Assembly: GCA_944324915.1 (NCBI GenBank)
Contig: CALUYD010000007.1
Location: forward strand, 1 to 64,000
Origin: Candidatus Gastranaerophilales bacterium
GTDB taxonomy: Bacteria > Cyanobacteriota > Vampirovibrionia > Gastranaerophilales > Gastranaerophilaceae
DNA length: 64,000 nt
Reading direction: 5' to 3'
Made by a program: the position numbers and the translations under genes. The notes under the pieces are model-generated. The model searched no databases and was not told the DNA's origin. It worked only from the letters and a program-made list of their open reading frames with translations. Shown here piece by piece: positions 57,547-59,291 of the stretch; position 1 is the stretch's first letter, and each line of letters opens with the position of its first letter.

Positions 57547-57552
57547 AATATA
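57547..57552 (-). promoter_or_regulatory. GT2 gene -10 box, leaderless geometry
   Basis: TATATT on the minus strand, seven bases before the ATG. The AAGGT between them is too close to the ATG to serve as a ribosome site. Confidence 0.35.
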
Positions 57553-57637
57553 TATCTAATTACTATTAAACTACTTTTTTTAAAATCAATAAATTAATTA
57601 TTAAGTTTTATTAAAAAAAGAAATTAAAACTATCAAT

Positions 57638-57666
57638 TTGTATTAGAAAAAATACTTTATTAGAAT
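57638..57666 (+). promoter_or_regulatory. promoter of the small-RNA unit
   Basis: TTGTAT (57638-57643), a 17-bp spacer, TAGAAT (57661-57666). No reading frame follows; it points to the terminator at 57782-57815. Confidence 0.6.
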
Positions 57667-57672
57667 GTAAGG

Positions 57673-57815
57673 GAAGTTAATAAATTATTTTGAAAATATG
57701 ATATAGATAATCACTAAAATTAAATAATAGAGGATAATAAAAAAAGTATTTTACTCTCTCTCTTGATATCCTCGTGTTTATAATGTTTGACCAAGTTATG
57801 TCAAACATTTTTTTT
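57673..57815 (+). ncRNA. candidate small RNA, about 143 nt
   Basis: A complete transcription unit without a reading frame lies between the divergent starts and ends of GT2 and murE: promoter at 57638-57666, then a hairpin GAGGATA/TATCCTC (57730-57736 with 57767-57773) whose 30-base loop holds CTCTCTCTCTTG, then a perfect intrinsic terminator. The loop could pair with ribosome sites of the GAGAG or GGAGAG type. The terminator faces the plus strand only, and no plus-strand gene precedes it. It matches no RNA family I know (6S, SRP, tmRNA, RNase P and common riboswitches were considered). Confidence 0.5.
57782..57815 (+). terminator. intrinsic terminator of the small-RNA unit
   Basis: AATGTTTGAC-CAAGTTAT-GTCAAACATT (57782-57809), a 10-bp perfect stem, with eight T in 57808-57815. 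In the other direction, past murE, the stem lacks a T-run. Confidence 0.8.
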
Positions 57816-57830
57816 ATTTATAAATTTTTA

Positions 57831-59291
57831 TTATTCACCAAAAACTTTTACAACTTCTTCTCTATCATCAAAATGAACAGTTCTATCTGCAAGAATTTGA
57901 TAATCTTCATGACCTTTTCCTGCTAATACAAGAACATCATTTTCAGATGAAATATCTTTTAAAAGTTTAATTGCAAGATGTCTATCTGATTCAACAAAAA
58001 CTGTCTTTGGATTAATTAATGCAAGTCCAGATAAAATATCAGTTATAATTTGTTGAGGATCTTCGCTTCTTGGGTTATCGGATGTGATAATAATCTTATC
58101 GCATAATTGTTGAGCAATTTTACCCATTTTAGGTCTTTTTGTGCAATCTCTGTTGCCACCACAACCAAATAGACAAATTAAATTACCGTCTTTTGGAGTT
58201 AATTCTCTTGCTGCTCTTAAGATATTTTCTAAACCATCCGGAGTGTGAGCATAATCAACAATCACCATAGGATTGGTTCTTACTATCTCAAATCTTCCTG
58301 CAACGCTTTTTGTTTCTTCAAGAGCAGATTTAATAACTTCAAGTTCAATTCCGTTAAATAAACCGGCACCTATTGCAGCTAGGCAATTATAAACACTAAA
58401 CATACCGTTTAAATGAAGTTTAAAGTTAAGAGATTTTTCTTTATAAACAACATCAAACGAAACACCATCAGACATAAATTCAACATTTTTAGCCATTAAA
58501 TCAGCTTTATTTTTTACACCGTAAGTAATTACATTAACACCTTGAGGAACAACGTCGATAAGTTTTTTTGCATACTTATCATCCATATTTATAACAGCAC
58601 CAGCACCTTCTTTTAAACCTTTGAACAATTTAGCTTTAGCGTTAAAATAATTGTCCATTGTAATATGATAATCAAGGTGATCTTGAGTTAAATTAGTAAA
58701 AATTGCAAGAGAAAAATTACAATTTTTAACTCTGAATTGTTCAAGAGCATGACTAGACACTTCAGTTATTACATTTAAAACATCTGCTTTTAATATTTTT
58801 TGCAATGTTTCTTGCATTTGCGGAGCTTGAGGCGTTGTGTGTTTTGCTTCTAAATAATCATCTTTTGAAGCAAGTTTATAGCCTAAAGTTCCAATTAAAG
58901 CACATTTTTTATTGTTTTCTTCAAAAATCTTTTGAACCAAATGAGCAACGGTAGTTTTGCCGTTTGTTCCTGTAACACCCATCAAATTTAAAGATAAACT
59001 TGGGTTATGATAAAATGCTGCAGCCAAATCTGCGATTGATTCTTGAGTTGATTTAACGATAATTTGAGGTATTTCAATATTCAAAGGTCTTTCACACATC
59101 AGTGCAACTGCACCTTTTTCAAAAGCGCTTTGAGCAAAATCATGTCCATCAACATGTTCGCCTTTAAGACAAACAAAAATCTCATGCGAATTAATCGTAT
59201 TTGAATTATATGAAATTCCTTTTATATCAATATCTTTAAAGTTCAATACTTCGATAGCATCTATATTTTTTATTAATTTACTTAAGTCCAT
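57831..59291 (-). CDS. murE: UDP-MurNAc-tripeptide synthetase (meso-DAP type)
   Basis: MurE adds the third residue to the peptidoglycan stem peptide. The 486 residues have the ATP motif GVTGTNGKTT (105-114) and the MurE substrate loop SDNPRSEDP (about 405-413), whose DNPR form selects meso-diaminopimelate rather than lysine. It lies directly downstream of ftsI in the same direction, in a standard wall/division cluster. GAGGAA precedes the ATG. It marks the wall as meso-DAP type, as in Gram-negatives and cyanobacteria. Confidence 0.96.
   Translation of the reverse strand: MDLSKLIKNIDAIEVLNFKDIDIKGISYNSNTINSHEIFVCLKGEHVDGHDFAQSAFEKGAVALMCERPLNIEIPQIIVKSTQESIADLAAAFYHNPSLSLNLMGVTGTNGKTTVAHLVQKIFEENNKKCALIGTLGYKLASKDDYLEAKHTTPQAPQMQETLQKILKADVLNVITEVSSHALEQFRVKNCNFSLAIFTNLTQDHLDYHITMDNYFNAKAKLFKGLKEGAGAVINMDDKYAKKLIDVVPQGVNVITYGVKNKADLMAKNVEFMSDGVSFDVVYKEKSLNFKLHLNGMFSVYNCLAAIGAGLFNGIELEVIKSALEETKSVAGRFEIVRTNPMVIVDYAHTPDGLENILRAARELTPKDGNLICLFGCGGNRDCTKRPKMGKIAQQLCDKIIITSDNPRSEDPQQIITDILSGLALINPKTVFVESDRHLAIKLLKDISSENDVLVLAGKGHEDYQILADRTVHFDDREEVVKVFGE

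Follow-up and report, generated by a model that had tools for sequence, protein, structure and literature searches.

Small RNAs of the RsaE/RoxS kind are CU/UCCC-rich and mask ribosome sites. In photosynthetic cyanobacteria, Yfr1 is a stand-alone RNA of 54-69 nt found in (nearly) every member of the lineage, where two hairpins enclose an ultraconserved, unpaired pyrimidine-rich stretch with the 11-nt ACUCCUCACAC (PMC2190773). Known pairs of a small RNA with its sponges include CrfA with SisA-D in Caulobacter (PMC12559287). The locus described here, termed sRNA1, lies in the window, that is to say the whole 64,000-nt stretch of a Candidatus Gastranaerophilales contig that was analysed. Even when 1 mismatch is allowed, a search of the window for the Yfr1 motif ACUCCUCACAC gives 0 matches, and the motif is missing from the sRNA1 alignments.

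The sRNA1 locus and its conserved blocks

The initial annotation of this region had proposed an undescribed, possibly trans-acting small RNA with its own promoter and terminator, in which a short stem closes a CU-rich loop. The features of the locus are:

57601..57614, plus strand: TTAAG-N5-TTAA box, 5' of the sRNA1 promoter (alignment; other promoters of the class)
57634..57637, plus strand: CAAT, within the conserved (GG)CAATTTT element at the -35 position (conservation)
57638-57643 and 57661-57666, plus strand: TTGTAT and TAGAAT, 17 bp apart, the promoter of the initial annotation (sequence)
57654..57672, plus strand: ACTTTATTAGAATGTAAGG, conserved -10/start block, family consensus ACTTTATATAAATGTAAGG (alignment, promoter loci)
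57655-57660, plus strand: CTTTAT, 17 nt 3' of CAAT
57669..57815, plus strand: predicted sRNA1 transcript, ~147 nt (start set by the promoter block, end by the T tract)
57730..57736, plus strand: GAGGATA, variable 5' segment that could pair with 57767-57773 (sequence)
57753..57781, plus strand: near-invariant, putative pairing segment ACTCTCTCTCTTGATATCCTCGTGTTTAT (conservation, complementary partners)
57754-57765, plus strand: CTCTCTCTCTTG (sequence)
57767-57773, plus strand: TATCCTC (sequence)
57782..57815, plus strand: intrinsic terminator with covarying stem (sequence, covariation)

Inspection of the interval bears out that it holds no plus-strand gene, with both neighbours on the minus strand (murE end 57831(-), GT2 gene start near 57548(-)). 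The perfect 10-bp terminator stem (57782-57791/57800-57809), then T8 (57808-57815), is likewise present as first described, and its T tract lies on the plus side only. An alignment of 30 sRNA1 loci was used to define conserved blocks and yields three of them, with a drifting middle. Block (i) is made up of the TTAAG-N5-TTAA box followed by the promoter, GGCAATTTT...ACTTTAT.A.AATRTAAGG, block (ii) is ACTCTCTCTCTTRATATCCTCGTGTTTAT, and block (iii) is the terminator, whose stem covaries across the family (98% of cells are paired, and one pair occurs as AU, GC and CG). sRNA1 has its own promoter and intrinsic terminator and no conserved reading frame. Its CU tract varies in length between 3 and 7 units of 2 nt, and these 2-nt steps argue against coding. 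Transcripts predicted across the family span 108-217 nt, with a median of 160.

The promoter is unusual, with GGCAAT and CTTTAT separated by 17 nt, and is kept across the family. This block is recognisable in 139 sRNA1 loci, where the C, A, A and T of CAAT are kept in 85-96%; the gap between CAAT and CTTTAT is exactly 17 nt in 109 of the loci of this set in which CAAT was found. The letters of the earlier TTGTAT-17-TAGAAT promoter are present, but TTGTAT is not conserved as a -35 element, whereas CAAT at 57634-57637 is. Upstream, the TTAAG-N5-TTAA box is a 10-bp repeat that appears in TTAAG-N5-TTAAC or GTAACA forms in relatives and at other promoters of the class, and it may be a regulator site.

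A pyrimidine-rich segment of 29 nt, ACUCUCUCUCUURAUAUCCUCGUGUUUAU, is near-invariant; it reads UUGAUAU in the window's genus (25/25 distinct loci) and UUAAUAU elsewhere (128/128). This segment bears directly on the GAGGATA/TATCCTC stem and CU loop, whose letters are present but whose role as a functional structure is not supported. The minimum-energy fold of sRNA1 lacks the stem, and 73% of cells are paired with 0 changes on both sides. Support from stem covariation, which the initial annotation had named as a check, fails because the 3' arm TATCCTC is invariant inside the 29-nt segment and the 5' arm GAGGATA drifts. That is to say, the terminator is conserved in relatives and the 7-bp stem is not. 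GGATA, the self-complement of the core, is somewhat enriched in 5' domains (35% vs 16% in shuffles), so that optional self-masking of the core by the 5' domain is possible.

Distribution of sRNA1 and the reality of the gene

A covariance search of relatives, also suggested in the initial annotation, was carried out by running the sRNA1 model, R1, on order-wide and class-wide genome samples. In the order-wide sample, sRNA1 is found in 164/170 genomes of the family Gastranaerophilaceae and in 165/192 overall, where the extra match is borderline (E 0.01) and belongs to another family. The class-wide sample gives 95 family genomes and 0 outside the family, with sRNA1 absent by the covariance model from the ~97 genomes outside it. 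A DNA search returned the region from congeners and from other genera of the family. Named records bearing sRNA1 are Candidatus Gastranaerophilales/Melainabacteria gut MAGs, and the few with other labels are probably mislabelled bins. Neighbours of sRNA1 vary by species (murE, radical-SAM, AAA ATPase, small regulators and others), and murE is not adjacent in many congeners. Because these flanking genes change among species, sRNA1 is regarded as an independent gene, and its position is independent of targets and neighbours alike. Some genomes hold 2-4 copies, some of them in tandem.

Tandem copies were observed in some genera, at G210:C2:88182 and 88439, at G180:C7:22648, 22914 and 25131, and at L114.

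It is this conservation on which the locus is judged real, since local statistics alone are weak. Promoter-like sites near sRNA1 occur at about the chance level (23 observed vs 19.9 expected from shuffles), and the plus-strand fold of the region is no better than shuffles (z -0.5). Such numbers would suit an AT-rich gap devoid of any RNA gene, where promoter- and terminator-like sites arose by chance, but an element kept almost throughout the family in varied surroundings refutes that explanation, whose probability is negligible. The minus strand folds better than its shuffles (z -4.3), and murE ends at 57831, which would fit a functional RNA read from that strand as a 3' element of murE. This candidate was rejected on orientation, as every relative has its promoter block and T tract oriented for transcription of the plus strand, and on the many congeners with non-adjacent murE; we find it barely credible.

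Rfam 15 holds no covariance-model match for the window, nor for the sRNA1 region at E up to 10. The literature searched, an incomplete collection that leaves absence unproven, yielded no paper on Gastranaerophilales sRNAs, and no small RNA of this group turned up in Rfam. With no Rfam match and no paper found, sRNA1 appears to be previously unlisted. The early proposal of an undescribed small RNA with its own promoter and terminator thus holds for an element that is family-wide and independent of its neighbours, and sRNA1 is almost certainly a real new sRNA family. Judged from the sequence, 57669-57815(+) is a stand-alone small RNA gene, where expression is predicted from a start near 57669-57671.

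Complementary RNAs and a candidate target

The window's own genome (G000) has 23 matches to GCAAT-N-ACTTTAT vs 4 for the reversed pattern, nearly all at one spacing. Reading the sequences 3' of these class promoters exposed complementary RNAs and leaders, described below as sRNA2, sRNA3 and an 87-aa gene.

sRNA2 is a non-coding RNA of ~110-130 nt with a terminator and the promoter core TATACTTTATATATA, identical to that of sRNA1. It carries a CAUUAAAUAAACACGAG(AG)AUAUUAAGAGAGAG segment, plus UUCCUAUUCCUACCUUCCU, and offers a 20-25-nt near-complement of the invariant segment. As for a sponge or antagonist, the extended complement resides in a separately encoded, non-coding RNA. Model R2 detects sRNA2 in 51/117 family genomes and 20/41 genera, and does not detect it in 66/117. 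Predicted sRNA1-sRNA2 duplexes have a mean energy of -33.2 kcal/mol vs -12.9 for shuffled sRNA2 (z < -3 in 29/29), and shuffled sRNA1 reaches -15.9 kcal/mol (best of 30, -20.2). The conserved complementarity of sRNA1 to a trans-encoded partner exceeds chance, and the positions paired by sRNA2 are those of the invariant segment, with fewer pairs at its central CC. Given the long matching sequence in sRNA2, the two RNAs probably regulate each other. A strict pattern, ACACG-N0-2-ATATTAAGAGA, has matches in 10 genomes and 0 for the reversed control; two of the ten (L331, L339) were rejected as sRNA2, as they lie inside reading frames and look like chance.

sRNA2 loci (L315, L316, L326-L329, L338, L340, L341-L370) often lie beside an apparent pyk 3' end. 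Pairing of the UUCCUAUUCCUACCUUCCU repeats of sRNA2 with ribosome sites could occur.

The partners also inform whether the conserved block might instead act through a protein or the transcription machinery, as a protein-titrating or 6S-like RNA would, and not by base pairing. A single-stranded segment conserved this strongly would be expected of such an RNA, and GGA motifs occur in 99% of 5' domains vs 93% in shuffles. The invariance is, however, directly explained by antisense partners that are themselves conserved and share the sRNA1 promoter core, and Rfam gives no 6S or CsrB-type match even at E 10, which leaves this possibility highly unlikely.

In the window's genus, the complement to sRNA1 is carried by sRNA3, a putative multicopy RNA with these copies in the window's own genome:

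G000 C3:134788, minus strand: sRNA3 copy, complementary to sRNA1
G000 C2:2927, plus strand: sRNA3 copy, complementary to sRNA1
G000 C18:1173, minus strand: sRNA3 copy, complementary to sRNA1

Related copies are found in 27/27 congeners searched. sRNA3 has ACCUCCCC near its 5' end and a CA-repeat single strand; CACGAGAAUCAAG is invariant in 18/18 copies examined, and the site pairs with sRNA1 at z < -2 in 18/18. Placements at C3:134572-134816(-) and C18:1145(-) were also noted for sRNA3 in this genome (L193, L188, L206).

The 87-aa gene (MARFQKRTN...), whose protein has no Pfam family, has AUAUCAAGAGAGAG spanning its ribosome site. Out of 784 genes taken from 40 stretches and the window, roughly half of the genome, this ribosome site is the strongest predicted target, at -28.1 vs -21.3 kcal/mol for the next. 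Orthologues in 23/27 congeners keep both the promoter class and strong pairing with sRNA1: their leaders have a mean of -23.4 and a mean z of -3.9, with 20/23 below -2, whereas shuffled sRNA1 gives a mean of -13.7 and a best of -15.2. Homologues are present in 101/107 family genomes, but leaders of other genera pair weakly (mean z -1.2, 6/27 below -2). Extension of the target to those genera was dropped, and the target is therefore taken as genus-limited. The 87-aa protein family (NPF...DPINLAF...LAKDFVKESF; loci L278-L300, L391-L420) was separately seen to be nearly universal in Gastranaerophilaceae.

When the G that sRNA1 carries in the window's genus is replaced by A, predicted pairing drops from -16.1 to -10.6 for sRNA3 and is also weaker at 19/23 ribosome sites of the 87-aa gene. 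Partners in the window's genus place C opposite this G, and partners elsewhere place U. Since U pairs with both, sRNA2 is blind to the A and G forms; A/G covariation between sRNA1 and sRNA2 was thus set aside; discrimination is confined to the partners with C, those of the window's genus. At the level of predicted duplexes, the exchange offers one-sided support for pairing in trans.

The initial annotation had further suggested that the CU-rich sequence masks ribosome sites. That idea fits one gene family in the window's genus, but it fails as a general rule. A global anti-Shine-Dalgarno RNA would mask many GAGAG/GGAG ribosome sites, for which the segment contains both CUCUCU and UAUCCUC, and ribosome regions do pair better than coding interiors (-10.2 vs -8.7 kcal/mol). 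Six dinucleotide shuffles of the seed, however, show the same or a larger ribosome-site preference, and 29 invariant nucleotides, including CGUGUUUAU, are more than such a role needs. A scan of both strands over ~0.86 Mb, which included some related loci, gave no excess of strong sites over shuffled seeds beyond the 87-aa gene. Global masking is accordingly quite improbable.

The earlier suggestion of a trans-acting role is supported by the conserved complementary partners. We consider it very likely that sRNA1 acts in trans by base pairing, and there is an equally high likelihood that its complementarity with the partner RNAs is functional. The fuller description, a trans-acting base-pairing RNA with its own promoter and terminator that is networked with complementary partner RNAs, is likely. 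Its pairing region would be the 29-nt pyrimidine-rich segment. In about half of the family, sRNA1 would form a 20-25-nt duplex with sRNA2, interrupted in its middle by a small bulge at the CC of AUAUCCUC; sRNA2 is then a probable sponge or antagonist, or each of the two RNAs antagonises the other. For the window's genus, two partners are proposed: the multicopy sRNA3 (CACGAGAAUCAAG) and, in the 87-aa gene family, a ribosome site of the GAGAGAG type. We infer the duplexes in cells, any chaperone and the direction of regulation; in the likeliest scheme for this genus, sRNA1 would cover the ribosome site of the 87-aa gene and repress it, and sRNA2 (or sRNA3) would bind the same segment and titrate sRNA1, or be under its control.

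Two further loci were observed. At G000 C1:292844(+) (L187), a short putative transcript reads ACAAGAGAGAUAG...AAAACACGAGAGAUGAAC...terminator and contains two complements of sRNA1 (-24.3 kcal/mol); it may be an additional partner, or else a leader that includes a 10-codon frame. Genus g39 has another RNA with a promoter of this class (L301), which carries ACAAGAGAGAUAUUAAGAGAGA and ends in a terminator; none of three sampled g39 genomes yielded the 87-aa family.

The 23 places in G000 (L185-L207) combine the GGCAAT-17-CTTTAT class with an upstream TTAAG-N5-TTAAC/GTAACA box. The class precedes the sRNAs as well as several protein genes that are uncharacterised (MGWV..., MSNVSFG..., MTVGATTG...).

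We rate as about even the chance of a family-wide RNA circuit, in which sRNA1, sRNA2 (many genera) and sRNA3 (window's genus) stand under GGCAAT-17-CTTTAT promoters that also drive protein genes. The regulator, its antagonists and at least one target would then form one co-expressed regulon with RNA cross-talk.

Comparison with described systems

sRNA1 is a near-universal RNA gene of its family with a concrete partner RNA, a candidate target and a promoter class, which together make post-transcriptional control testable in these mostly uncultured gut bacteria. In common with RsaE/RoxS, its putative pairing segment is rich in pyrimidines and its predicted target site spans a Shine-Dalgarno sequence; unlike them, sRNA1 has a longer invariant segment and no Rfam match, and general ribosome-site specificity is unsupported. 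The arrangement resembles CrfA/SisA-D, in which one small RNA likewise finds the complement of its pairing segment in another encoded elsewhere. In the predicted sRNA1-sRNA2 pair, the promoter core is common to both and the complement runs to 20-25 nt.

sRNA1 has neither ACUCCUCACAC nor the 54-69 nt, two-hairpin form of Yfr1, being ~147 nt (family median 160) with a different 29-nt segment. Given this other length and motif and the lack of a match, membership in Yfr1 is rejected and the likeness is kept. Like Yfr1, sRNA1 is stand-alone and lineage-wide within the same phylum, and it combines variable 5' hairpins with an unpaired, ultraconserved pyrimidine-rich segment before the terminator hairpin. 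By analogy, the two RNAs may work somewhat alike, with no relatedness implied, and sRNA1 would be a functional counterpart of Yfr1 in the sister group of cyanobacteria that lacks photosynthesis.
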